The notes under the pieces are model-generated. The model saw only the letters and a list, made by a program, of their open reading frames with translations. It ran no database searches and had not been told where the DNA came from. This document shows positions 33,956 to 61,344 of a DNA stretch of 64,000 nucleotides, piece after piece (within the stretch, counting starts at the first letter, position 1; every line of letters starts with the position of its first letter). The DNA comes from Vagococcus xieshaowenii (lineage in GTDB: Bacteria > Bacillota > Bacilli > Lactobacillales > Vagococcaceae): the NCBI RefSeq assembly GCF_004792515.1, contig NZ_CP038865.1, forward strand, positions 952,001-1,016,000, read 5' to 3'. Position numbers and translations under genes: made by a program.

Positions 33956-35345
33956 AGAATCCATTATTATCAGAGACTTGTTTAAACCAACGACCGCTGT
34001 TTTTAATTGAGCGTTCCCAGTTTTTATCTAAATTAACAGAGATAAAACCATATCTGTTCTTATAAGCATTAGTCCATGACCAATTATCCATACAAGTCCA
34101 CATATGATAGCCTAAACAGTTAGTACCTTCTTCAATAGCTTGATGAACGTATTTCAAGTGTTCTGAAACAAATTCAATTCTATAATCATCTTCAATGATA
34201 CCCTCAGCATTACGGAATTTTTCTTCGCCCTCAACACCCATTCCATTTTCTGAAATAAAACATGGAATATTACCATAGTTTTCTCTGACATTTGTTAAAA
34301 TATCATAAATCCCTTTTTCATAAATTTCCCAACCTCGGTGTGGGTTCATTTTACGTCCAGGCATTTCGTAATTATCAAAGTAGTCTTCAGGCATTGGACC
34401 ATGTTCATGGTTAATAGGTGTTTCTTTTGCTTTGACACGACGTGGTTGATAATAATTAATCCCTAGTAAGTCGATGGTGTTGTGTTGAATAATCTCCAAA
34501 TCACCCTCTTTAATCTCAGGCATCATGTCAAGTTCTTTGACGATGTCGACTAGTTCGGTAGGGAATGTCCCTTTAACAGAAGGGTCTAAGAATGAACGAT
34601 TGAACATGGCATCGGCAATGATAGAAGCCTTCACATCTTCAGGATTATTCTCATCTCGTGGATAACTTGGTGTCAAATTCAAAATAATCCCGATTTGACC
34701 GTCTAATTTTAGTTCATGATAAACTTTAACTGCCATCGCACTCGCTAGCATTTCATGATAACCTACTTGAATGGCATGTTTTAAGTTGATTTCGTTTGGA
34801 TAATGGAACTGGTAAAGATAACCTGCTTCAACCGGAACAATCGGCTCATTATGCGTAAACCATTTTTTTACACGGTCTCCAAATAGTTCAAAACAAGTCT
34901 GAGCGTAAACAACATACGCCTCAACTGTTTCACGATTTAACCAGCCACCTTTTTCTTGGAAGGGCATCGGCATATCAAAATGATATAAGTTCATAAACGG
35001 TTCAATGCCATTAGCTATCATTTCATTAATTAAATCATTGTAATAGTCAACTGCGGCTTGATTGACTTCACCAACCCCATTTGGAATCAAACGACTCCAT
35101 TGGATAGAGTGGCGGTACGAGTTATGCCCGGTTTCTTTCATTAATTGAATATCTTCTTTATACGTTTGATAAAAACGTGACGCATTATCGGGACCGACAT
35201 TGTTAAAGAATTTTTCTGGTTCAATGTCATACCAGTAGTCCATAACGTTTTGTCCTTTACCATCACCTTCGAATTTACCTTCTGTTTGTGGGCCACTAGC
35301 AGCAGAACCCCACCAAAAATTATCGGGAAATTGATATTTCACCAT
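33954..35345 (-). CDS. Glycoside hydrolase family 1 (beta-glucosidase or 6-phospho-beta-glucosidase)
   Basis: A 463-residue TIM-barrel enzyme with the N-terminal FWWGSAASGPQTEG, acid/base THNEP (E in HNEP) and nucleophile FISENGMG of GH1. It hydrolyses beta-glucosides. The end reads DNWSWTNAYKNRYGF: the tyrosine of the phosphate-binding K-x-Y motif of 6-phospho enzymes is present, but the lysine is shifted by one and asparagine takes its place, so a phosphorylated substrate is uncertain. It is divergent from a GntR/UTRA regulator that is its probable repressor. No PTS gene is adjacent. AGGAGG precedes the ATG. Confidence 0.9.
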   Translation of the reverse strand: MVKYQFPDNFWWGSAASGPQTEGKFEGDGKGQNVMDYWYDIEPEKFFNNVGPDNASRFYQTYKEDIQLMKETGHNSYRHSIQWSRLIPNGVGEVNQAAVDYYNDLINEMIANGIEPFMNLYHFDMPMPFQEKGGWLNRETVEAYVVYAQTCFELFGDRVKKWFTHNEPIVPVEAGYLYQFHYPNEINLKHAIQVGYHEMLASAMAVKVYHELKLDGQIGIILNLTPSYPRDENNPEDVKASIIADAMFNRSFLDPSVKGTFPTELVDIVKELDMMPEIKEGDLEIIQHNTIDLLGINYYQPRRVKAKETPINHEHGPMPEDYFDNYEMPGRKMNPHRGWEIYEKGIYDILTNVRENYGNIPCFISENGMGVEGEEKFRNAEGIIEDDYRIEFVSEHLKYVHQAIEEGTNCLGYHMWTCMDNWSWTNAYKNRYGFISVNLDKNWERSIKNSGRWFKQVSDNNGF

Positions 35346-35505
35346 GAAAACGCCTCCTAAAATTATTATGTTTTAATGATAACACAATATAATACAAATG
35401 ACTATACATTAATCAAAAAGATGCTATAATTATATTGAGAAAGAAAAGGCTTACTTAATTAGTTTATGATATAATACATGAGAATGAAAATGGGGGAGAA
35501 GTAGA

Positions 35506-36210
35506 ATGACAAAATATGAATATATTGCTGATGTTATCCGAAAACGTATTTTATCTGGTGAATATCCTGAAAACACCTTAATTCCTAATCAAATTGAATT
35601 AGTAGAAGAATTTAACGTTAGTCGTATGACAATCAAAAAAGCCATTAATATCTTAATGATGGAAGGACTTGTCTATAGTCAACGAGGCTTAGGAACAACT
35701 GTTTTAAACAATCAGTTACCTGAAAGAAGTGCCACATTGGCAACTGATTATTCTGGTTTAACAAAAGGATTAGAAGGAAAAGAAATACAGAGTAATGTCA
35801 TTAAATTTGATGTGACATTTCCTAATGAACTGACCCAGGAAAAGTTAAAAATCTCATCACATCATCCGGTTTATGAAATTATTCGATTAAGAATCGTTGA
35901 TGAAGAGCCTTATGCTTTAGAACATACCTTGATGCCGGTTGATCTAGTACCAGGGTTAACGAAAGAGATTGCTTCGCACTCAATCTATTCTTATTTAGAG
36001 CAGATTGGGATAGAATTTGCTGGGGCCCATCGTAATATCCATGCAGATAAATCTAATGAATTGGACCACCAATATTTAGAGTGTGCCATCACAGATCCCG
36101 TATTGGAAGTAGAACAAGTTGTTTACTTAAAAAATTCACGTCCAATCGAGTTTTCTAGAAGTAGAAATCGTTATGATAAAAAGAGCTATACAGTACTAGA
36201 TGTCATGTAG
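35506..36210 (+). CDS. GntR-family (HutC/UTRA) transcriptional regulator
   Basis: A 234-residue regulator with an N-terminal winged helix (LIPNQIELVEEFNVSRMTIKKAINILMMEGLVYSQRGLGT in about residues 25-64) and a UTRA ligand domain (about 85-230) with VYEIIRLRI and EHTLMPVDLVPGL. UTRA proteins usually sense phosphorylated sugars. It is divergent from the GH1 gene and followed by a proline iminopeptidase after 10 bases. GGGGGAG precedes the ATG, and TATAAT at about 35471 may be the promoter. Confidence 0.9.
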   Translation: MTKYEYIADVIRKRILSGEYPENTLIPNQIELVEEFNVSRMTIKKAINILMMEGLVYSQRGLGTTVLNNQLPERSATLATDYSGLTKGLEGKEIQSNVIKFDVTFPNELTQEKLKISSHHPVYEIIRLRIVDEEPYALEHTLMPVDLVPGLTKEIASHSIYSYLEQIGIEFAGAHRNIHADKSNELDHQYLECAITDPVLEVEQVVYLKNSRPIEFSRSRNRYDKKSYTVLDVM

Positions 36211-36220
36211 GAGGGATTAG

Positions 36221-37099
36221 ATGAAAGTTGTAGAAGGGTTTATGCCATTTAAAGGTCTTAAAACATACTACAGAATAATTGGAGAAAAAAGAGAAGGAAA
36301 AGCACCGCTAATATTGATTCATGGGGGACCAGGTTCAAGCCATAATTATTTTGAATTACTCGATTCACTAGCTGAAGAGGGGCATCAATTAATTATGTAT
36401 GACCAAATAGGTTGTGGCCAATCACCTGCTAAGGGACGAGTAGATTTATTTAATCTTTCAACATGGAAAGAAGAACTTATTGCATTACGTCAACACTTGA
36501 AACTTGATGATGTTCATCTGTTAGGTCAATCTTGGGGTGGTATGTTGGTAATTGCATATCTTATTGATGAAAAACCAGAAGGCGTTAGAAGTGCAATTTT
36601 TTCAAGCACTTTGTCTTCAGCCAATCTATGGAAACAAGAGCAAGAAAGAATGATTCGCTTAATGACGGAAGAGAACCAAATGTATTTACTAAATGAGAAA
36701 CCAACAGATCCTAAGACATTAAAAGCTTATCAAAAAGCGGAAGACTTATACATGTTAACACATGCTTCAGGTCCCATCAATGACACATCACCTGAGCCAT
36801 TAAGAAGGCCCAAACATTCAGGGAAAGAAGCGTATATCACAGCATGGGGACCTAATGAATTTTCACCAAAAGGTAATTTAAAGGATTTTGATTATACAGA
36901 GAAATTAAAGTTGATTACTGTTCCGGTCTTAATCACAAGTGGAGTAGATGACTTATCAACGCCTTTGATTAACAAAACAATGTATGATCACCTCTCAGAT
37001 GCTAAGTGGGAGTTATTCGCTCATAGTCGTCATATGCCATTTTCTGATGAAACGAAAAAGTATCAGAAGTTATTAAATGAGTGGTTATTAACCCACTAA
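36221..37099 (+). CDS. pip: Proline iminopeptidase (alpha/beta hydrolase, S33)
   Basis: A 292-residue cytoplasmic peptidase that removes N-terminal proline. The oxyanion motif HGGPGSSHNYF (34-44), nucleophile elbow GQSWGG (S104), a late Asp in TSGVDDLSTP and His in AHSRHMPF complete the triad. The length and cap domain match Lactobacillus PepI/Pip. It starts 10 bases after the GntR gene with an AGGAGG site, so the two share a transcript. A very strong terminator begins inside its last codons. Confidence 0.9.
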   Translation: MKVVEGFMPFKGLKTYYRIIGEKREGKAPLILIHGGPGSSHNYFELLDSLAEEGHQLIMYDQIGCGQSPAKGRVDLFNLSTWKEELIALRQHLKLDDVHLLGQSWGGMLVIAYLIDEKPEGVRSAIFSSTLSSANLWKQEQERMIRLMTEENQMYLLNEKPTDPKTLKAYQKAEDLYMLTHASGPINDTSPEPLRRPKHSGKEAYITAWGPNEFSPKGNLKDFDYTEKLKLITVPVLITSGVDDLSTPLINKTMYDHLSDAKWELFAHSRHMPFSDETKKYQKLLNEWLLTH

Positions 37100-37138
37100 A
37101 AAACATGACATCCATAGTGGATGTCATGTTTTTTAGTG
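37094..37138. terminator. Bidirectional terminator shared by pip and fni
   Basis: A perfect 21-bp stem with a 3-base loop. The pip stop (37097-37099) lies in the left arm and the fni stop (37133-37135) in the right arm, so one hairpin serves both convergent genes and also encodes their last residues. Confidence 0.92.
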
Positions 37139-38193
37139 ATAACGATTAGCAAATGATTGCCAATCAATTTGTCTAGCTTCACACCATGTTTTTAGTGGAT
37201 CCATGAGTACGATGTCTGAAGAAGTTAAGCTTGTAACAGTATCAGCACTTAAAAGTGTCATTAACGTTTGAATGGTATTTTTCCAACGTTCAACCTCTGC
37301 AATCGTCTCATCAACCCCTTCATTTAAAACCAAATGTAAGAAGTGGCCAGATAATCCAACCGCTTTAGCACCTAAGGCTAAAGATTTAACAATATCATAA
37401 GGATTTCTGATACCCCTGATGCAATGAGGTTAATATCTTGATGAATAGCGTAACCTTCTAGTAATGAAATAGCTGTAGACTGTCCCCAATCTTCAGCAAA
37501 TGCGAACTCTTGGTGTTCACGTCGTGCATTCTCTATTTTTAAGAAATTAGTACCACCGTTACCACTGACATCAATTGTTTTAACGCCTGCTTGGGATAGA
37601 CGTTGAATGGTCTCTTTACTCATACCAAAGCCAACTTCTTTTACAATAACAGGAACGCCGATTGTTTGAACAGTCTTTTCAATATTATTTAACCATGTGT
37701 CAAATATACGTTCTCCTTCAGGCATTACTAATTCTTGTGGCGCATTAACGTGAATTTGTAATGCGTCAGCTTTCAGGATGTCGACGGCTCTTTGATAATT
37801 TTCAATCGGATGTTCTGGTCCTAAGTTGGCAAAGATTTTACCATTAGGATTTGTTTGACGAATAATTTCAAAACTAGGAGCTGTTTCAGGATGCTTAATG
37901 CCTGCACTAACCGATCCAGAAGCTATTGCAAGCCCTGTTTCTCTAGCGACAGTTGCTAAATCTTGATTAATTTTATATGTTTTATCGCTACCACCAGTCA
38001 TACCATTAATAAAGAAAGGAAAAGGGAAATCCATATCAGCAAACCGAGTGGCTAGACTAACATTTTCCTTATTGACTGTTGGAAATGAATGATGAACAAA
38101 TTTAATCGCATCAAAATGATCAGCTCGACGTTCGTGATAGAAAGCTTCTGCTAATTCTACATGTTCATCTTTACGATTAGTGTGTTGTGTCAT
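37133..38193 (-). pseudogene. fni: Type 2 isopentenyl-diphosphate isomerase, interrupted by one frameshift
   Basis: Type 2 IDI interconverts IPP and DMAPP using FMN and NADPH. The first frame (from the ATG at 38193, after AAAGGA) gives INGMTGGS, ASGSVSAG and DVSGNGGTNF, then goes out of frame at INLIASG. The second frame continues exactly where the family should: GIRNPYDIVK, GAKAVGLSG and the C-terminal KTWCEARQIDW. A run of four G on the coding strand (plus-strand C at 37413-37416) needs one more G to restore a protein of about 353 residues. It is the last gene of mvaK1-mvaD-mvaK2-fni. A real knockout would block DMAPP supply unless another isomerase exists, so a base-calling error is a serious possibility. 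Confidence 0.9.
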
Positions 38194-38211
38194 GGTAATC
38201 ATCCTTTCTGA

Positions 38212-39294
38212 TTAAACTTGTTTTACGTAATCATAATGTACCAAAAGCGGAAGTGGTGTGATATTTTTTCCTAACCATTCAGTAAATAATGGTGTATAAG
38301 TTGGTCGTTTTTCAATAATGACAATGCCACAATCGCCACCACCAGCACCGGATGATTTTGCAGCGCCACCGTATTCTTCAGCAATTTCGCACATTTCAAA
38401 AAGAGTTGATGTTTCAATCTGAATACCACTACTTTTTCCTAGTTGTTGTAGTAATTGGCGATTTTGTTTGATACCGGTTTGGATTGTTTTAATCTCTTGC
38501 TCTTTAAATCCTTCTAACATCTTTTCAACAACCGTTTTGCTTTCTGCTAAAAAGTGCGTGTAACACTCTCGAATTTCAGCTTTCTCATCGTTAATTAAGT
38601 CAACCAAATGAGTCGTAGAAGCAGGTGTACCCGTCCAACCAATTAATAATTCTAGGTTATTAGGCACTTGTAAGGGTTCGATATTTAATAAAGGCCAGTC
38701 CATTTCTAAAAGTTCGGATAAACTGTGCTCGCTAATCTTATTCATTAGCCATTCTCGGTCAAAGCATGAGTAAGCAATCCATCCGCCAAAAGAACTTGCA
38801 GCTAAATCTCCAAATGAACCGTTACTATTGATTGCTAAGTGCGTAATAGCTGCTAGTTTATATAAGGTTTCAGAAGTGAAGGGCACATGATAAAATTTTA
38901 ATAACGCCTTGATTGTTGCAACGGTTACCGCTCCACTTGAGCCTAAACCATATTTACGTCCATCGTGGTTATCTAAATCACTTTCTATTTCTAAATTAAA
39001 GAAGTGTAGTGGTTTATTCAATTCAGATAAATATTTTTCTGTTGTCGTTACAGCTTCAACGACATAGGCAAACGGATTTTCACGTTGGTCCATGAAAAAT
39101 TTTCCTTGTTTACGCGTCCAAGGGATAGGGAACCCATTCGTTAAGCTTGAACGAATCGTCCCCAAATTATTCGTTTGCGTTAATTTTACAGTGATATATT
39201 GATTAAGCGCGACTAAAATAGCGGGATGACCAGGTTCTAGTACGGCATATTCACCGGCAATATATAGTTTGCCAGGTGCGCTAGCTTTTATCAT
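38212..39294 (-). CDS. mvaK2: Phosphomevalonate kinase
   Basis: A 360-residue GHMP kinase that converts mevalonate-5-phosphate to the diphosphate. The N-terminus APGKLYIAGEYAVLEPGHPAI (4-24), GLGSSGAV nucleotide loop (near 117-124) and the C-terminal SSGAGGGDCGI motif are typical of the bacterial MvaK2 type. It lies 15 bases from mvaD and 18 from fni in one minus-strand operon. Length is normal. Confidence 0.95.
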   Translation of the reverse strand: MIKASAPGKLYIAGEYAVLEPGHPAILVALNQYITVKLTQTNNLGTIRSSLTNGFPIPWTRKQGKFFMDQRENPFAYVVEAVTTTEKYLSELNKPLHFFNLEIESDLDNHDGRKYGLGSSGAVTVATIKALLKFYHVPFTSETLYKLAAITHLAINSNGSFGDLAASSFGGWIAYSCFDREWLMNKISEHSLSELLEMDWPLLNIEPLQVPNNLELLIGWTGTPASTTHLVDLINDEKAEIRECYTHFLAESKTVVEKMLEGFKEQEIKTIQTGIKQNRQLLQQLGKSSGIQIETSTLFEMCEIAEEYGGAAKSSGAGGGDCGIVIIEKRPTYTPLFTEWLGKNITPLPLLVHYDYVKQV

Positions 39295-39309
39295 GTGATT
39301 CTTCCTTTC

Positions 39310-40296
39310 TTATTCGACCGACAAGAGGTAAGCGTCTTTACCTACACCAGAAATAATGGTTGTGTTATCGGGAAATGATTGATCTAATAGTTTCTTTATT
39401 TCGTCAGCTTTATCCGCTTGACAGATAACTTTAACGTTTGGTCCAGCATCCATTGTATAGTAACAAGGGATTCCTTGTCCACGTATCTCACGAATTCTTT
39501 GTAAAACTTTAACGGTTAGAGGTTCCCAATAGCTAAATGGAGGATTTGCACCCAGCATTGTCCCATGCATCTTCATACCGTTAGCTTCTGTAAGTTCTCC
39601 TAAAGCAATAAAGTCTTGATTATTAATAGCTTGTTTGATTGCTTTAATATCTTGTCCGGCTTGTTCTACCCATGCTGGATAAAAAGGAGACGTCTCAACA
39701 GTCAATTTCATTCCTTCACGGCTGGAAATTTCTTTTTTGCGTGTATTAACTGGAATAGTTAGCATGGCAATATTCCAATCGGCATCATCTACTTTGATAG
39801 CATAACTATCACTTCCATCAGTTTCAATGCCCATTTGCCACTCTACAAAGCCACCGTATATACTTCGAGTCGCACTACCAGAACCTTGACGAACAAAGGT
39901 GGAAAGTGTTTGTTTATCCATTCTTAACACAAATAATTCGTTTAAGGCGGTTCCCAGGGCAGCAAATGCTGAAGCTGATGATGCTAACCCTGCTGCGGTC
40001 GGTACATGATTATGACTTTCTACCAAAACAGCAGACTTAATAGACGATTGTGTACGGAATAATTCTATAAACTTCGAAATTTTAACACATTCTTCTAGAG
40101 GTTGTTCTACACCATTTAAGAAAAAAACATCCTGGTCTCCGTCAATAAAAGAGACTGTGGTATCAGTATAAAATTCATCTAATGTAAGTGACAACGAACT
40201 ATTCATTGGTAAAAATAATGTCGTATCACGTTTTCCCCAATATTTAATTAAGGCAATATTTGTATGTGCGCGTGCTGTGACGCGTGAATGTTTCAT
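39310..40296 (-). CDS. mvaD: Diphosphomevalonate decarboxylase
   Basis: A 328-residue GHMP-family enzyme that makes isopentenyl diphosphate. The N-terminus TARAHTNIALIKYWGKRD, the AAGLASSASAFAALG phosphate loop and the TMDAGPNVKV C-terminal motif are present. I choose the ATG at 40296 (MKHSRVTARAH), preceded by GGGAGA at the end of mvaK1; the frame is open further upstream to 40326 within mvaK1 but that would give a non-family N-terminus. It follows mvaK1 by 5 bases. Confidence 0.95.
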   Translation of the reverse strand: MKHSRVTARAHTNIALIKYWGKRDTTLFLPMNSSLSLTLDEFYTDTTVSFIDGDQDVFFLNGVEQPLEECVKISKFIELFRTQSSIKSAVLVESHNHVPTAAGLASSASAFAALGTALNELFVLRMDKQTLSTFVRQGSGSATRSIYGGFVEWQMGIETDGSDSYAIKVDDADWNIAMLTIPVNTRKKEISSREGMKLTVETSPFYPAWVEQAGQDIKAIKQAINNQDFIALGELTEANGMKMHGTMLGANPPFSYWEPLTVKVLQRIREIRGQGIPCYYTMDAGPNVKVICQADKADEIKKLLDQSFPDNTTIISGVGKDAYLLSVE

Positions 40297-40301
40297 ATAA
40301 A

Positions 40302-41222
40302 TTAGTCTCCCATCTGATAAAGCCAAGTATTTTTTGCACCATGTGAAGTTAGTGCCTTTTGGATGTGCTGAGCTTCTTGTTTAGAAGTTGCTAAGGCAAT
40401 CATACAACCACCTCGACCACCACCAGTTAATTTAGCCCCAATTGCACCATTATTTAGCGCCACTTTTACAAGTTGATCAAGGCAATCATTAGAAACATTA
40501 AGTTTCGCTAGTAGCTGATGAGAGGCTATCATCGCTTTCCCTAGGTCTAGTGGCTGATTATTTGTAATATAAATTTTTGACGCTTCAGCGAGTTCTCCAA
40601 GACGGCTAATCATCTCACTAACTTCCTTCTGGTGTTGTTTTGACGCTATTTCGGCAACGGCTGCTTTTGTCTGTCCAGTAATACCGGTATCAGCTACAAT
40701 TAAGCAAGCGTCTAGATTCAAAGAAAAAGGTGTCATAAATTGATTTTTCGCAAAAAAATAAGGTGTGGTGCTACTTGTCATTAGCGCATCTAATCCGCTA
40801 GGGTTACCGTGAGCAATTTTTTCAGATTCTCCGACAATACTTAGTAACAATTCATTTGTTAGAGAGACTTCAAAATAATCGAATATCCCACGAACGGTTG
40901 CAACGGCAACAGCAGCACTAGATCCCATACCTCTCTCGGCAGGAATAGTACTTTGAATACCAATGGATAATGTTTCATTTTTATTTAAATAATCTAAAGA
41001 GATCGTAATAACATGACGAAGGCTTTCAAGTAATTCAGGCATTTCTGAAACCAAGCCTTGATAAAATTCACAAGAAATCATTAGTTCTTCTGGGTGAGGG
41101 GTAACTGTCGCAATAATGCCCACGCTAGGGAAGGGGATTGCAATAGCAGGTTTTCCATATACAACTGAATGTTCACCCATCAAAATGATTTTTCCGTGAG
41201 AATTTCCAATTCCAATGCTCAT
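40302..41222 (-). CDS. mvaK1: Mevalonate kinase
   Basis: A 306-residue GHMP kinase that phosphorylates mevalonate. Motifs: GKIILMGEHSVVYGKPAIA (10-28), the P-loop-like ERGMGSSAAVAVA (near 95-107), the catalytic Asp region NPSGLDAL and C-terminal LTGGGRGGCMI. A GGAGGA site precedes the ATG. It is the first gene of the second mevalonate transcript; a promoter (TTGAGA, 17 bases, TAAAAT) lies just upstream on the minus strand. Confidence 0.95.
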   Translation of the reverse strand: MSIGIGNSHGKIILMGEHSVVYGKPAIAIPFPSVGIIATVTPHPEELMISCEFYQGLVSEMPELLESLRHVITISLDYLNKNETLSIGIQSTIPAERGMGSSAAVAVATVRGIFDYFEVSLTNELLLSIVGESEKIAHGNPSGLDALMTSSTTPYFFAKNQFMTPFSLNLDACLIVADTGITGQTKAAVAEIASKQHQKEVSEMISRLGELAEASKIYITNNQPLDLGKAMIASHQLLAKLNVSNDCLDQLVKVALNNGAIGAKLTGGGRGGCMIALATSKQEAQHIQKALTSHGAKNTWLYQMGD

Positions 41223-41254
41223 ATTATTCCTCCATTTACATAGTCAACCTTTAT

Positions 41255-41283
41255 ATTTTAGCTTAAAACTGCTATTTTCTCAA
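41255..41283 (-). promoter_or_regulatory. mvaK1 promoter
   Basis: On the minus strand TTGAGA (41283-41278) and TAAAAT (41260-41255) are separated by exactly 17 bases. The -10 is 33 bases before the mvaK1 start. Confidence 0.65.
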
Positions 41284-41292
41284 TGTTTACAA

Positions 41293-41330
41293 CGATATTT
41301 TCATGATAATTTCGTTATATTCATGATTAT
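41293..41330 (-). repeat. Tandem 18-nt repeats, 20-nt period, upstream of the mvaK1 -35
   Basis: Two copies of CGWTATWTTCATGATWAT (plus-strand reading) at 41293-41310 and 41313-41330 agree at 15 of 18 positions. Each contains the palindrome TCATGA. They lie 10 bases upstream of the -35 and two helical turns apart, the usual placing of an activator site. Confidence 0.5.
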
Positions 41331-41385
41331 CATACGTGATTTTTGAGGAAAATAAACAAATAGGATGTATTATTAAGGAATATTT

Positions 41386-41416
41386 AAAAACTCATAGTGA
41401 AATCACTACGAGTTTT
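41386..41416 (-). terminator. Terminator after mvaA
   Basis: A 14-bp stem (AAAACTCATAGTGA with TCACTACGAGTTTT, one wobble) is followed on the minus strand by a T tract. The mvaA stop codon lies inside it. It separates mvaS-mvaA from the kinase operon. Confidence 0.82.
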
Positions 41417-42704
41417 GTTGTCTATATACAGTTAATAAGTCACTAGCCGTTTTAAGATTCATGCGTTCTAAAAGACGAAGTTGTGATGCGATAGCTTCAA
41501 TTTCATCTCCTACAGCTCCAGCATGAATAGCTAGCGCACTAGCGTGTAACGACATATGGCCTTTTTGAATACCTTCTGTTACCAATGCACGAATTGCTGC
41601 AAAATTTTGTGCTAACCCGACAGAGCAAATGATACGGCCTAATATTTCAGCATCATGGGTTTGCAATAATTCTTGCGAAGCTTTGGCTAGAGGTAAAGCA
41701 TTAATAGCGCCTCCTAAAGAACCAAGTAATAAAGGAAGGGTTAACTCACCAATTAAACAATTAGATTTAGAATCAATGTACCAATTCGTCAAACCTTGAT
41801 AACGACCATCCTTTGCTGCATAGGCGTGAATACCTGCTTCTATGGCTCTTGTATCGTTGCCTGTTGCCATAACAACAGCATCAATACCATTCATCATCCC
41901 TTTATTATGCGTAACAGCGCGATAAGGATCTAATTTTGCATAATGTGACGCTTTTACAATTTTTTCGGCAACCACGTCACCAGACAATTCTTTAGTGGCT
42001 AACTGATTAAAAGGAATAGAACACGATGAACTAACTAATGCACGGTCATTATAATTGCTCAAAATACTCATTAATTTCTCCGCGCGTAGCCATTCTTGTA
42101 TAACAGGTGTCACACCTTCTAAAATGGTATTCACGATATTGGCACCCATGGCTTCTTTTACATCTACAAATAAGTACACCGTTAGATATTCAGCTTGATC
42201 TTTTTCGTTATAAATAATATGAGCCTTAAGATCGACTAATCCTCCTCCACGAGCCACAATGGAAGGGTGAGCAAGTTGCGCTAATTGTTTGATTTCATCA
42301 ATGCGTTGTTCAATTAATCGTTTCCCCTCTGAAAAGTCCTCTAAGTTATAAAAAATCATTTGTCCTGTTTGTAGACGCTCAGGAAAAGAGGTTTTAAATC
42401 CTCCAGTGGCACGTGTAAATCGTGCTGCATTACTACAAGCTGCAATAACAGATGGCTCTTCTGTAACCATTGGAATCAAACATTCTTCGCCATCTACAAT
42501 GAAATTCAACGCAACTCCCATTGGTAGGGTGAATTGACTAATTTGATTCTCAATTAAGTGATTAGCTACTTCTTCAGATAAACCTTTAGCGTTAAATAAT
42601 AGCTTAGCTGTTTCTTCAGATAAAAAGGCTCTTTCCGTTAATAGAGCCAATCGTTCTTCACGACTTTTTTGGTAAAATTTAGAAATACTGGATGCTTTTT
42701 CCAT
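41406..42704 (-). CDS. mvaA: Hydroxymethylglutaryl-CoA reductase (class II)
   Basis: A 432-residue enzyme that reduces HMG-CoA to mevalonate. Class II motifs: ENQISQFTLPMGVALNF (substrate), EEPSVIAACSNAA, the DAMGANIVN cofactor segment, HNKGMMNGIDAVVMATGND and a C-terminal catalytic His in MSLHASALA. It is not fused to a thiolase, unlike enterococcal MvaE (about 800 residues), so acetoacetyl-CoA must come from a gene elsewhere. It lies 8 bases after mvaS and is co-transcribed with it. Confidence 0.95.
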   Translation of the reverse strand: MEKASSISKFYQKSREERLALLTERAFLSEETAKLLFNAKGLSEEVANHLIENQISQFTLPMGVALNFIVDGEECLIPMVTEEPSVIAACSNAARFTRATGGFKTSFPERLQTGQMIFYNLEDFSEGKRLIEQRIDEIKQLAQLAHPSIVARGGGLVDLKAHIIYNEKDQAEYLTVYLFVDVKEAMGANIVNTILEGVTPVIQEWLRAEKLMSILSNYNDRALVSSSCSIPFNQLATKELSGDVVAEKIVKASHYAKLDPYRAVTHNKGMMNGIDAVVMATGNDTRAIEAGIHAYAAKDGRYQGLTNWYIDSKSNCLIGELTLPLLLGSLGGAINALPLAKASQELLQTHDAEILGRIICSVGLAQNFAAIRALVTEGIQKGHMSLHASALAIHAGAVGDEIEAIASQLRLLERMNLKTASDLLTVYRQQNS

Positions 42705-42712
42705 AATATATG

Positions 42713-43903
42713 TTACTCCTTTGATTCTCCAACAAAGTCATAATGACGCTGATGATTAGTTACTTCGACTAATTGAATTGGCGCATGATCAAAGCGACTA
42801 GATAAGCTAGCTGTTGAGCCATCCGTCGGTAATTTTTCAGAGAACACCTCTTCATATTCTGCAACAGTTAATAATTGACGTGCAGCAAGTAAACCAGTAT
42901 GTTCGGCTGTCAATAAATGTTCATCAAAACCATCAACTAGATCAAGTAAGAAGAATTCGCCAACCGCCCCAGAGCCATAGCTAAAGCACCCAATCGTATG
43001 TCCTGCTTTTAAGCTTGGCGCGTTATCTAGTAATGAATTTAAGCCTAAATATAAAGAGCCAGTATAGATATTTCCAATGTTTTTTGTGTAAATAATACTT
43101 TCTTCGTAATGTGTCAAAAAACGTTCTTTTGTTGTCTCTGAAACATTTTCTAATAAATTAGCCATTGCTTTTTTTCCCATTTTTGAATAAGGCAAATGAA
43201 AACATAAGGCTTCTAGAGATGCCACATCAAGAGAATAACGTGATTGATATTCTTTAAGGACTGTTTCAAAAAAGTTAATATAAGCTTCATTTGAAAATTT
43301 ACCATCTACCATGGCATTCTCAGAATAAGTAGGACGCCAGAAGTCAAAAATATCACTCGTATACATAACGGTTTCATCTCTGATTGAAAAAATTCTAGGG
43401 TCTTCGGCAATTAACATCGCTACTGCTCCAGCACCTTGAGTGACTTCCCCAGGTGTATTTAAGCCATAACGGGCAATGTCTGAACCAATTACTAATACCT
43501 TACGTCCAGGATGTAAGGTTACATAGTCCTTGGCCATCATTATACCAGCTGTTGCACTGTAGCAAGCTTGCTTCATCTCAATACAACGGGCAAAAGGATT
43601 AATACCTAATAATTTGTGAATAGACACCGCACCAGACTTAGAATAATCTGTTCCTGATTCTGTGGCAAAAATCACCATATCAATTAGTAACGCATCTTCT
43701 TTAGAAATAATAGGTAGGGCTGCATTAGCTCCCATAGACACCGCATCTTGTGTGATCGGGTTAATTCCCATTTTTTCTTGACCAATGCCAATTGTATATT
43801 TATTAGGGTCTGTGTCACGAGCGTGAGCCAGATCGATCATATCGACATATAGCGTAGGGGTGAAGAAATTTATTTTATCAATACCTATTTTTTTAGTGTT
43901 CAT
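42713..43903 (-). CDS. mvaS: Hydroxymethylglutaryl-CoA synthase
   Basis: A 396-residue thiolase-fold enzyme that condenses acetyl-CoA and acetoacetyl-CoA. The nucleophile is C114 in MKQACYSATAG, the general acid E82 in ATESGTD, and the His lies in FHLPYSKMGKKA. The ATG at 43903 has AAGGAGAG 7 bases upstream; the frame runs back to 43936 without a ribosome-binding site. It starts the mvaS-mvaA transcript, divergent from the mhqR operon. Confidence 0.95.
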   Translation of the reverse strand: MNTKKIGIDKINFFTPTLYVDMIDLAHARDTDPNKYTIGIGQEKMGINPITQDAVSMGANAALPIISKEDALLIDMVIFATESGTDYSKSGAVSIHKLLGINPFARCIEMKQACYSATAGIMMAKDYVTLHPGRKVLVIGSDIARYGLNTPGEVTQGAGAVAMLIAEDPRIFSIRDETVMYTSDIFDFWRPTYSENAMVDGKFSNEAYINFFETVLKEYQSRYSLDVASLEALCFHLPYSKMGKKAMANLLENVSETTKERFLTHYEESIIYTKNIGNIYTGSLYLGLNSLLDNAPSLKAGHTIGCFSYGSGAVGEFFLLDLVDGFDEHLLTAEHTGLLAARQLLTVAEYEEVFSEKLPTDGSTASLSSRFDHAPIQLVEVTNHQRHYDFVGESKE

Positions 43904-44083
43904 ATGTATTCTCTCCTTATTTGGAAAATCTATCATTTGAAGTGTAGCATAAAAATGCTGAAAACGTGAATACTCTTACGATTATTTAAATTATTTTAAT
44001 AAATTTAGTGTCTATTTATCGTTAATTTTAATAAATTAAGTTAGCAAATAAGAATTAAAACTTATTTTTTGTAAGCATATAAA

Positions 44084-58077: not shown

Positions 58078-58716
58078 ATGCTGTCTAAAGCAAAAACAAT
58101 GGAAGCCATCGATATTATTGCCGATATGTATCCAGATGCCGAATGCGAATTAGTTCATAAAAATCCATTTGAACTTTTAATCGCTGTTATTCTTAGCGCA
58201 CAAACAACAGATGTTTCAGTTAATAAAGTAACACCTGCTTTATTTAATAAATTTCCAACTCCTGAAGCTCTAGCAACAGCTGATTTAACAGATATTGAAG
58301 ACACAATTAAAACAATTGGGTTATATCGAAACAAAGCCAAACATATTAAAGGTTGTAGTCAAAAAATAGTCTCTGAGTTTGATGGTAAGGTACCACAGAC
58401 TATAAAAGAGCTCGTTAGTTTACCAGGCGTTGGGAAAAAAACGGCAAATGTTGTGGTAAGTACAGCTTTTGGCGTTCCTGCTATTGCAGTGGATACTCAC
58501 GTTGAAAGAGTCTCCAAACGTTTAAGAATTGTGAAACAATCGGCTACTGTTAATGAAGTAGAAGAGACATTAATGAAGAAAATACCCAAAGATAGATGGT
58601 CTAAAACACATCATCAATTAATTTTCTTCGGGCGCTATCACTGTACAGCAAGAAAACCAAAATGTAGTGAATGTCCATTGCTTTATATGTGTGCAGAAGG
58701 TCAAAAAAACACATAA
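58078..58716 (+). CDS. nth: Endonuclease III
   Basis: A 212-residue DNA glycosylase/AP lyase that removes oxidised pyrimidines. The helix-hairpin-helix LPGVGKKTANVVV carries the catalytic Lys (in GVGKKTA), the Asp lies in VDTHVERVS, and the C-terminal cluster C-x6-C-x2-C-x5-C (CTARKPKCSECPLLYMC) binds 4Fe-4S. Length is typical. AGGGGAT precedes the ATG. It is the last gene before the terminus gap. Confidence 0.95.
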   Translation: MLSKAKTMEAIDIIADMYPDAECELVHKNPFELLIAVILSAQTTDVSVNKVTPALFNKFPTPEALATADLTDIEDTIKTIGLYRNKAKHIKGCSQKIVSEFDGKVPQTIKELVSLPGVGKKTANVVVSTAFGVPAIAVDTHVERVSKRLRIVKQSATVNEVEETLMKKIPKDRWSKTHHQLIFFGRYHCTARKPKCSECPLLYMCAEGQKNT

Positions 58717-58740
58717 GACTATTTTATGAAAACAATTATC

Positions 58741-58778
58741 AAACCGTATGTAAGTTAATAGCTAACATGCGGTTTTTT
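58741..58778 (+). terminator. Terminator after dnaD-nth
   Basis: AAACCGTATGT pairs with ACATGCGGTTT (one wobble) and a six-T tract. Confidence 0.85.
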
Positions 58779-59051
58779 GGAACGAAATAGATAGTATATA
58801 AATAAATTATGTAAACTAGTATAAAACTAACCAAAAAATCAATCAGTGTCATGATTTTTTTGAGTCATACTTATCACATTTCATTTGACTATCAATAAGT
58901 ATTCGTTGTATCAACAAATGCTAACTTAAATTTTTATAAACAATTCATATAAAATCATTTATCTACATGAATACTTAATAGATAGGACTAAACGAGTGGG
59001 GGACGTATATGGATAGACTTTTTAAAGATGAGTTAATAATTATTTTATCTA

Positions 59052-59079
59052 GGTTTACATAATATATATTATAAGAAGT
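59052..59079 (-). other. dif: Chromosome dimer resolution site dif
   Basis: Read on the minus strand, the 28 bases begin ACTTCTTATAA and end TTATGTAAACC. Compared with the Firmicutes dif consensus as I remember it (ACTTCCTATAA... TTATGTAAACT), 26 of 28 positions agree; compared with the B. subtilis site, 25 of 28. The XerD-side arm (TTATGTAAAC) is intact. The site lies in a gene-free region at the point where gene orientation switches. Confidence 0.85.
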
Positions 59080-59147
59080 AGTTAAAATGAGTTATCCTAC
59101 AGACAGATGCTAGCTATAATCATTAAGTTAATACTAACTATTGATAT

Positions 59148-59205
59148 AATCGTTAAATAAATTAAACTTTTGCAGCTGTTTGAAGGCTTAAGTTATTTAA
59201 CGATT
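59148..59205. repeat. Long inverted repeat in the terminus gap
   Basis: 59148-59165 and 59188-59205 are reverse complements at 17 of 18 positions, with a 22-base loop. A T-rich stretch follows (TTTATTT). It is 69 bases from dif. It may be an orphan terminator or a protein-binding site. Confidence 0.5.
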
Positions 59206-59643
59206 TATTTGCCAGTATCATTCAATCAACTAACTTTGAATAATTAATCAAAAATGTATCCTGTTAATTAAATGCTAGTATTAACTGATCTAATACCATT
59301 TTGTAACTAACCAATTAACTATTTTTCAAAAATCAATCAATTGATATTACATTAGTATTAACGTATTAACCTCATAAAAACTTAATATGAAATTGCATAA
59401 CTAAGTGATATTTAACTAATAGTTATTAGCATTTCTTATCAAATCGTTTTTATTTATAGAATAATAATAACTAATTATCCATAAGTTAAAATCATCGATC
59501 ATTTTATATGATTACATAAATATCAGCCGACTACATATGATCTATATGATTAAACAGGACTGTTTGAAAGCTCTTTTCATCTTTACAGAAAATGATAATA
59601 TTCAATAAAGATGAATAAAAATTAAATAATATGAATATTATGG

Positions 59644-59672
59644 TTGATTAATTGGTATAGACCATATATAAT
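59644..59672 (+). promoter_or_regulatory. xerS promoter with a NagR/DasR-type operator in the spacer
   Basis: TTGATT (59644-59649) and TATAAT (59667-59672) are spaced exactly 17 bases apart. The dyad TTGGTATAGACCA (59652-59664) occupies the spacer and matches the HutC-family NagR operator. A second such site lies before the MupG-like gene. Confidence 0.65.
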
Positions 59673-59712
59673 GATACTATCTCCTACTCTATACATGAAA
59701 GGAATGATAAAA

Positions 59713-60777
59713 TTGAATCGTGAACACGTTATGAATATGCTGCAAAACGAACTTGATCAAGCACCTGATTACCTTAAAGATTTCGTTCATCACAAACTAA
59801 CACAAGAATTCTCTCCTCACACGATAAATGAATACTTAAAAAATTATCGGCTTTTTTTCAACTGGGCTCTTTCGGAGCACATATTGAGTGATTTATCCCC
59901 TGATTCTTTAGAAAGTTTAACCGCTTATAAAATGAATCTGTATAAATCTCACCTACTTTCTCGAGAAAAATATGGCACTCCTTCTGACACTTATAAAGGA
60001 ACGTTGTCTAAACCGACAATTAAGCGACATTTAACGGCTTTAAAAGTATTGTTCCACTATTTAGCTACTAGTTATGATAACGCACAGGAACGCCCCTATT
60101 TGTCACACAATCCAATGAATGGCGTTGAAAATGTAAAAGAACAGCAAACATTACAAGCACGTGCAGATGCTATCGAAGAAAAATTGTTTTTAGGTAAAGA
60201 AACACATGATTATTTAGCGTTTATTGAAGAAGATTATCAGCATACGCTATCTCCTCAAGCCCTAAAATTTTTTAAGCGTGATAAAGAACGCGATGTTGCG
60301 ATTAATGCACTAATTCTTGCTAGTGGTTTGAGACTTTCTGAAGTTGTTAATTTGAATTTAGAAGATGTTTCCTTTGAAAAAAATCGCTGCTATGTCACAA
60401 GAAAAGGTAATAAAAAAGACTCTGTAAGAATCGCTTCTTTTGGCATGGATTATTTAGCAAACTATATTAGCGTTAGAACCTTACGATATCCAAATACTAA
60501 TGAAACCTCTGCTCTGTTTATTACTACATACAAAGGACAGTCCACAAGAATGAGTGGTAACGCTATTGAAAAGATGGTAGCCAAGTATTCTAAAGCTTTT
60601 AGAGTGGAAGTTTCTCCGCATAAGTTACGCCATACACTTGCCACGAATTTATTTAAATCATCCAAAGATTTATTATTAACCTCACAGCAACTCGGTCACT
60701 CTTCAGCCGGACAAACAACCGCACTTTACATTCATATCGATAACGATACGACAATGGACGCATTAAATTCATTATAA
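59713..60777 (+). CDS. xerS: Tyrosine recombinase XerS-type
   Basis: A 354-residue tyrosine recombinase close in length and sequence pattern to streptococcal XerS (about 356 residues). Catalytic residues are R207 (GLRLSE), K231 (TRKGNKKDS), H303 and R306 (HKLRHT), H329 (LGHSS) and Y339 (LYIH). The XerS-typical LGKETHDYLAFIEED and RDKERDVAINALILAS are present. I choose the TTG at 59713, 9 bases after AAAGGA; an ATG at 59704 abuts that site. It lies 0.6 kb from a dif site and is the only plus-strand gene to its right. It should resolve chromosome dimers. Confidence 0.85.
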   Translation: MNREHVMNMLQNELDQAPDYLKDFVHHKLTQEFSPHTINEYLKNYRLFFNWALSEHILSDLSPDSLESLTAYKMNLYKSHLLSREKYGTPSDTYKGTLSKPTIKRHLTALKVLFHYLATSYDNAQERPYLSHNPMNGVENVKEQQTLQARADAIEEKLFLGKETHDYLAFIEEDYQHTLSPQALKFFKRDKERDVAINALILASGLRLSEVVNLNLEDVSFEKNRCYVTRKGNKKDSVRIASFGMDYLANYISVRTLRYPNTNETSALFITTYKGQSTRMSGNAIEKMVAKYSKAFRVEVSPHKLRHTLATNLFKSSKDLLLTSQQLGHSSAGQTTALYIHIDNDTTMDALNSL

Positions 60778-60817
60778 AAAATAGCAATGTCTAGTTAAAT
60801 TAGACATTGCTATTTTT
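60776..60817. terminator. Bidirectional terminator between xerS and the TetR gene
   Basis: An AAAAATAGCAATGTCTA stem with its complement, and T tracts both ways. It overlaps the xerS stop and the TetR gene stop. Confidence 0.9.
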
Positions 60818-61344
60818 GTTTATAAGCAAAAGGCGTTCTAGTAAACCATTAATAACCGCTGAGTCTTCGTAATGTGCAGGCGTCTGTAGTAGCTGAATGG
60901 CTAGACCATATATTCCCCAACTGATGAAACTAGTAGTTATATTGCCGTTCTTTGACCTAGATTTAATAGCTGTTTCAATTATTTGGATTAGCAAATGCGA
61001 CAAACTACTGTTTATTTGATTATATGATAGGGTGAACTCTTCTTTGATAATCTGATGAAGTTTCACGATATCATCAATTAGTTCCTGGTAAAAGGCAACA
61101 TCCTCTTTGGTAGAACTACGCCACTTTTTTCAAGCGTATTTAAATAAACATATGATAACGTTTGCTCTAAAAGTGTCTGCTTATCTTCAAAATTCGCATA
61201 AAACGTTGAACGATTAACGCCTGCTTCTTTTGCAATATAAGCAATTGATAGTTGCTGCCAGTCGTATTTTTTTAATAAGATGAAACAGGTGGATCTAATT
61301 TTTTCTTTTGTTTTAATGATTCGTTTATCTATTTTATTGTTCAT
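60800..61344 (-). pseudogene. TetR/AcrR-family regulator, interrupted by one frameshift
   Basis: Two overlapping minus-strand frames make one TetR protein of about 181 residues. The first (from 61344) has the N-terminal helix-turn-helix IAYIAKEAGVNRSTFYANFEDKQTLLEQTL. The second continues with EDVAFYQELIDDIVKLHQ and the C-terminal ligand domain. The break is at a run of six A on the coding strand (plus-strand T at 61125-61130); one more A restores KKWRSSTKEDVAF. The start at 61344 lacks a strong ribosome-binding site. It is downstream of the aldehyde dehydrogenase gene on the same strand and may control it. Confidence 0.82.

Follow-up and report, generated by a model that had tools for sequence, protein, structure and literature searches.

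A conserved palindrome upstream of xerS, next to a classical dif site, is a candidate XerS recombination site at the probable replication terminus of Vagococcus xieshaowenii

Introduction

The XerS/difSL system of streptococci and lactococci was reportedly described by Le Bourgeois et al. in 2007. According to passages of a 2017 review (PMC5357621), streptococcal XerS acts on difSL and is an alternative to XerCD. XerS is presented as such an alternative also in parts of Carnoy and Roten 2009 (PMC2731167), and excerpts of a further paper (PMC8987985) state that it effects segregation in this capacity in Streptococcus and Lactobacillus. For Lactobacillus helveticus, sections of Kono et al. 2011 (PMC3025954) report a XerS alongside XerC/XerD close to the skew shift; neither dif nor a XerS site was found there, and the authors termed this state a possible evolutionary intermediate. 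In the portions of the open-access literature that we searched, we found no account of a dif and a XerS site lying next to each other. The two systems, XerCD/dif and XerS/difSL, are generally portrayed as alternatives. With both adjacent at one terminus in several lineages, the change from one to the other becomes open to testing, and the pairing of dif and XerS in relatives may show how streptococci swapped one system for the other.

The locus analyzed here resembles XerS/difSL in that a XerS-family protein is encoded at the terminus with a candidate site close upstream of its gene. It differs in that the genome also has XerC, XerD and a classical dif, and in the arm sequence of the site, which agrees with difSL at 21/31 positions (chance level). 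Compared with XerCD/dif of Bacillus subtilis (CodV/RipX and Bsdif), the dif sequence (25/28), XerC and XerD above their cut-offs and the position at the terminus are alike, whereas in our case a second recombinase with its own candidate site adjoins dif. As in L. helveticus according to Kono et al. (PMC3025954), XerS occurs together with XerC/XerD near the skew shift; unlike there, dif and a candidate XerS site are present and adjacent, and the pairing is found in many genomes.

Results

The window, by which we mean the whole analyzed stretch of 64,000 nucleotides, is C1:952001-1016000 in a 2.07-Mb genome. On its minus strand, a dif site lies at 59052-59079 (ACTTCTTATAATATATATTATGTAAACC; left arm ACTTCTTATAA, centre TATATA, right arm TTATGTAAACC). 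It was identical at 25/28 positions to the 28-mer of B. subtilis dif, and 100 shuffles of the window gave 0 matches. Thus, the site named in the original prediction is real, and its agreement, given there as about 26/28 with the consensus, is 25/28. A 27-base dif pattern, fitted to the window's site and containing two degenerate positions, had this site as its single match at three or fewer mismatches across the 2.07-Mb genome. A dif pattern was present in 28/29 genomes of the family.

GC skew was calculated for 20 sampled 10-kb stretches. It was positive in all nine stretches at 0.1-0.91 Mb, negative in all ten at 1.016-1.91 Mb, and -0.06 at the contig start. Within the window, the 4-kb skew bins flip sign between 1008001 and 1012001, with dif at 1011053; an earlier negative-skew patch, at about 36-44 kb of the window, precedes this main flip. 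Since the unique dif match is accompanied by a sign flip near 1.012 Mb, the region is very probably the replication terminus. The three observations that the original prediction named as refuting it did not occur: the skew switches at dif and not far from the window, no better dif was found in the genome at three or fewer mismatches of the 27-base pattern, and the site is conserved in relatives. A single dif at the skew switch is also the arrangement expected of XerCD/dif. Window positions 34000-44000, inside an arm of otherwise positive skew, have a higher GC content and mostly negative skew.

XerC is encoded at C1:786909 (361.7 bits; equivalog cut-off 335.15) and XerD at C1:1047603 (393 bits; cut-off 329.6). 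The possibility, raised earlier, that XerC/XerD are encoded elsewhere in the genome thus proved correct, and dif has its usual enzymes. From what is known of the family, XerCD would act at dif. With XerC, XerD and dif all present, XerS is not the only Xer system of this chromosome. A third recombinase resembling XerC/XerD, some 315 aa long (L003; C1:1086091-1086897), is encoded about 75 kb from dif and scores below both the XerC and the XerD cut-offs.

The xerS gene (59713-60777, plus strand; 354 aa) has a probable TTG start at 59713, read by eye and preceded by AAAGGAATG, and its ORF is 633 bp from dif. In a profile search with NF003462 it scored 398.3 bits against a curated cut-off of 267, in agreement with the assignment of a XerS-type recombinase 0.6 kb from dif. 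The catalytic residues R207, K231, H303, R306 and Y339 were invariant among 16 aligned XerS. A likely promoter, TTGATT-17-TATAAT, is at 59644-59672 on the plus strand (boxes read by eye, positions checked), and its spacer contains the palindrome TGGTATAGACCA at 59653-59664. At the matching position, GGTATATACC was found in 3/4 Enterococcus xerS upstream regions and GGTCTATACC in the fourth; a palindrome of the GGTnTAnACC type is present in the xerS promoter of the window, of the related genome G019 and of the aligned Enterococcus upstream regions. Between promoter and start codon, the window (59680-59690), L189-L194, L285 and L286 carry a TCTCYCCTACT-like leader motif, common to distant XerS groups, which could sequester the ribosome site. 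An Rfam search of 58600-60900 gave no match. Just 3′ of xerS, at 60800-61344, a TetR-like regulator gene (by eye) is apparently frameshifted into two short minus-strand ORFs.

Upstream of xerS, we found, as a candidate XerS recombination site, a 44-bp imperfect palindrome at 59574-59617, TTTTCATC-TTTACAGAAAA-TGATAA-TATTCAATAAA-GATGAATA, with a 28-bp core at 59582-59609. It is located 95 bp (the core, 103 bp) upstream of xerS, and 26 bp separate its end from the likely -35 box. The dyad matches at 15/19 arm positions around a 6-base centre (core arms, 8/11). Since 12/300 shuffled regions reached 15/19, the dyad alone is weak evidence; in the 64 kb this score occurs at 8 places, the candidate site included. 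The best match to the 31-bp difSL between dif and xerS, at 59579-59609, was 21/31. In 700 bp of random sequence (200 draws), the 95th percentile was likewise 21/31 and the maximum 22. Therefore, similarity to difSL by itself proves nothing; it was rejected as sole evidence for a XerS site, and conservation was used instead.

In the alignment with G019, the interval is mostly diverged (mean 18.3/40 columns identical, sd 7.0). Three blocks were at the top: the promoter (59653-59692, 37/40), the candidate site (59576-59615, 37/40) and dif (59048-59087, 35/40). The next block, in the ribosome-site region, was 28/40. In its own genome the candidate site is unique at three or fewer mismatches. The statement of the original prediction that no difSL-like sequence was found between dif and xerS was not confirmed: a conserved dyad with counterparts in relatives is present there, at 59574-59617. 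The core has an 11-6-11 layout and can in this way be set beside difSL; since passages of the 2017 review give difSL an 11-bp central region (PMC5357621), 11-6-11 describes the sequence and not an established geometry of cleavage. That XerS would recombine the 59574-59617 site is suggested by its position, conservation and co-occurrence and by the precedent of streptococci, as given in parts of that review (PMC5357621).

XerS was above the cut-off in 16/29 family genomes, namely 14/14 of a neighbouring genus (g4) and 2/4 of the window's genus; the other two of the latter, G017 and G018, have dif and no XerS above the cut-off. The window's XerS is 88% identical to that of G019 and 39-42% to those of g4. 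In 15/16 XerS-positive genomes xerS is within 8.3 kb of dif, and 15/16, 13 of them g4, have dif, the XerS site and xerS in this order. In G013, xerS and dif are on different contigs, and no XerS site was found. The palindrome between dif and xerS in the 13 g4 genomes has the consensus arms TTTTACCTTTCTTGAAAG / CTTTCAAGAAAGGTAAAA. It is directly upstream of xerS in eight genomes and 1.3 to 7.7 kb from it in G004, G006, G008, G009 and G012, being closer to dif than to xerS in G004, G009 and G012. Scored with a pattern in which six of 42 positions are free, these five distant palindromes reached 36 or 37 of 42, and the maximum in 60 random 12-kb sequences was 30. For five of the 13 XerS-less family genomes the dif regions were scored as well, and no site in them exceeded 29. 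In G019, the site, the promoter and xerS are kept and the DNA between them has diverged; in the G019 stretch compared, we did not find the genes that lie upstream of dif in the window. Separately, G017 has a second dif-like site (L284, about 6301; G017:C53:36300) by ORFs that resemble prophage tail/lysis genes by eye, suggesting a phage that uses XerCD/dif.

For Lactobacillaceae, the figures are counts over related species and not independent events. XerS was above the cut-off in 72/251 genomes, and 58/72 had a dif match (two or fewer mismatches of 20 fixed bases). Second and self-complementary matches and the lone 2-mismatch match of G248, on another contig, were dropped, and 57 dif-positive genomes were kept. 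Among the 72, dif and xerS are on the same contig in 53 and on different contigs in 4, and xerS is within 2.5 kb of dif in 46. Where the contig is shared, dif is upstream of xerS in 52/53, at a median distance of 888 bp. When loci of two Lactobacillaceae XerS types (four and five loci) were aligned, the strongest blocks included dif together with a palindrome of the form TTTCATTAAAA-N6-TTTTAATGAAA, or nearly so. The palindrome is about 600 bp (Lactobacillus-type loci) or about 120 bp upstream of xerS, and the layout dif, site, xerS is the same in all nine. No site was seen beside xerS in the eight XerS-only lactobacillus loci aligned; the upstream regions of L200, L201, L207 and L211 gave no clear block, and those of L195, L198, L203 and L212 aligned well only at a tRNA-like stretch, with no XerS site. 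This stretch, tRNA-Pro by eye, precedes xerS in the latter four loci and is 34/34 conserved in two blocks.

XerC/XerD-type genes were counted with NF001399 at E<=1e-50. Two were present in 56/57 XerS-positive, dif-positive Lactobacillaceae (13/13 and 43/44), the exception being G085, whose xerS is cut by a contig edge. XerS-positive genomes lacking dif had 0 or 1 such gene in 14/15, all below the cut-off, and G248 had two above it. The cut-off was rejected as a clean divide for the genes of dif-less genomes, as some second copies in dif-positive genomes also fall just under it (G052, 278.3 vs 279). A dif match was found in 76/80 XerS-negative genomes searched, of 179, by the same loose standard that gave 58/72 for the XerS-positive ones. 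Every XerS-negative, dif-positive genome tested (32/32) had at least two XerC/XerD-type genes. The XerS-negative sample was chosen to include the dif-less G056 (two genes), G203 (one), G169 and G193 (none); G169, G193 and G203 contradict, as a strict rule, the loss of dif and XerCD only with XerS. There were no XerC/XerD-type genes in three Streptococcaceae and two in each of two Enterococcus. From the gene counts in dif-positive and dif-less genomes, we conclude that XerC/XerD and dif go together, and that their loss is more frequent in genomes with XerS without being confined to them. At least three changes of the dif state are needed on the XerS tree, a count that takes streptococci and lactococci as dif-less, the genome-wide dif search having covered three Streptococcaceae. 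In the Streptococcaceae comparison, 34 of 80 listed XerS loci were scanned, 21 of them Streptococcaceae. In 20/21, all but L096, difSL (27-30 of 31) starts at a point 60-158 bp ahead of the xerS match, and no dif-like site above 20/28 was found in the flanks of the 21 loci.

Boxes with 7 of 8 SOS core positions precede 27/28 family lexA genes; random sequence of the same make-up reaches 7 of 8 in 1.6% and 6 of 8 in 19%. No SOS-box-like operator was found upstream of xerS in the window (4 of 8 core positions) or G019 (6 of 8). In g4, 9/14 xerS upstream regions reach 7 or 8 of 8 and 4/14 reach 6; thus, a box in every g4 xerS was rejected. G012 has 4 of 8, and as its match begins at profile position 24, the true upstream region is possibly elsewhere. 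In the 30 best-scoring of the 72 Lactobacillaceae loci (two were too short), 7 of 8 positions were found in 15/15 dual, dif-positive loci and in 2/13 without dif. From the box itself, LexA would be predicted to control the xerS genes that bear it. The g4 operators with 7-8 of 8, directly before xerS, are those of L011-L015, L018, L020, L022 and L023; the dual-system lactobacillus loci with such boxes are L189-L194, L196, L202, L204, L208, L209, L213, L214, L217 and L218.

The tree groups the XerS of the window and of G019 with those of Enterococcus (support 88, without a star and subject to a long-branch warning). Among 80 listed loci of 580, the window's XerS is 52-57% identical to five Enterococcus loci and 40-46% to the other 75. 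PLSDB contained 513 plasmid XerS records at E<=1e-30, 383 of them Enterococcus, with best rows at 54-57% identity. Enterococcal-plasmid XerS are thus among the closest sequence relatives, and a palindrome and a similar promoter are upstream of xerS in the plasmid loci read; the window's xerS, in contrast, is chromosomal, at the terminus, and adjoins dif. The XerS of the window's lineage, which groups with the often plasmid-borne XerS of enterococci, may have been recruited to the chromosome. An exactly opposite placement of repA and xerS on enterococcal plasmids was rejected, the separation being about 39% and about 44% of the circle in two plasmids; repA was not found in the stretches examined of NZ_CP118956 and NZ_CP072879.

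In E. pallens, xerS is at about 254 kb of a 1.41-Mb contig. The skew of this contig is positive or near zero in six stretches up to xerS. From there to 0.90 Mb, 10/11 stretches are negative (the one at 0.54 Mb is 0.013), and from 0.96 Mb onward the skew returns to positive values. Within 0.90-0.96 Mb, the cumulative minimum is at 903 kb, and ParA and a RepA_N initiator are encoded at 904-907 kb (L281, G031:C1:900001-920000). The dif of E. pallens is on another contig, likewise at a skew switch. Since the skew has this pattern, with parA-repA at the minimum and xerS at the positive-to-negative switch, the contig appears to be a second replicon whose terminus carries xerS; an exact overlap of the contig ends, as expected of a circular molecule, was not found. 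Conserved palindromes are upstream of the E. pallens xerS, one of them with the outer CATCTTT/AAAGATG of the window's site.

Discussion

Judging from the sequences compared, two dimer-resolution systems probably share this terminus, XerCD on the classical dif and XerS on a palindromic site of its own. The XerC and XerD proteins, whose genes are elsewhere in the genome, would act on dif, and XerS, encoded 0.63 kb from dif, on the palindrome just upstream of xerS. Since both sites are where replication ends and where FtsK-type translocation would be expected to converge, either system could resolve a dimer. XerS would then be a second, accessory system, giving a chromosome dimer two independent chances of resolution. 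The elements are present, conserved, unique in the genome and co-occurring, and they lie at the terminus; recombination of its site by XerS would, we infer, yield dimer resolution. The original prediction also offered XerS as a paralogue with another role. This is half correct: position, site and co-conservation suggest that XerS would serve the same general function, resolving dimers at a terminus, and use a different site for it.

XerS is unlikely to be a remnant of a plasmid or mobile element that entered beside dif, a gene that worked for this element and is without a function for the chromosome today. The many plasmid XerS (513 PLSDB records, 383 Enterococcus) and the two of four genomes of the window's genus without XerS above the cut-off would fit such an origin. 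However, the ORFs around xerS look chromosomal by eye, the layout recurs in the neighbouring genus and among Lactobacillaceae, and site, promoter and gene were kept in G019 while the intervening DNA diverged and the stretch compared did not yield the genes that precede dif in the window.

The short distance between xerS and dif (within 0.65 kb here, and up to 2.5 kb in 46/72 XerS-positive Lactobacillaceae) could also mean that XerS, by itself or together with XerC/XerD, uses the classical dif, as the original prediction had considered. We regard this as very improbable. XerC and XerD are intact in the window's genome, two XerC/XerD-type genes accompany dif in 56/57 XerS-positive Lactobacillaceae, and streptococcal XerS is reported, in passages of the review, to act on difSL (PMC5357621); action on dif is not needed, since XerS has a separate conserved candidate site. 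Least probable of all is that a regulator of xerS binds the 59574-59617 palindrome as its operator, or that the palindrome is part of a transcript structure, and that it is no recombination site. Palindromic operators look alike, and this palindrome ends 26 bp upstream of the likely -35 box; its counterparts, however, are about 600 bp upstream of xerS in Lactobacillus-type loci, and in five g4 genomes the distance to xerS is 1.3 to 7.7 kb; its core can be laid out like the streptococcal difSL.

Beyond the two-system reading of this locus, we tentatively propose, as a possibility somewhat short of probable, a dual terminus in Lactobacillales with XerS beside dif, partly under SOS control, which would have been a bridge to the loss of XerCD/dif. 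In the lineages with SOS boxes, extra dimer-resolving capacity would appear when DNA damage raises recombination; for these lineages only, the window excluded, we hypothesize that the second system is used mainly under damage. XerCD and dif would have been lost from the dual state in Streptococcaceae and again in some lactobacilli. The XerS module of the window's lineage would have come from the plasmid or megaplasmid XerS clade. Our comparison also connects XerS of chromosomes with the terminus of large plasmids. In L043 and L044, two palindromic sites about 370 bp apart are located 198-571 bp upstream of the E. pallens-type xerS, and a lone dif-arm-like sequence, ATTATGTAAAC, lies between them.
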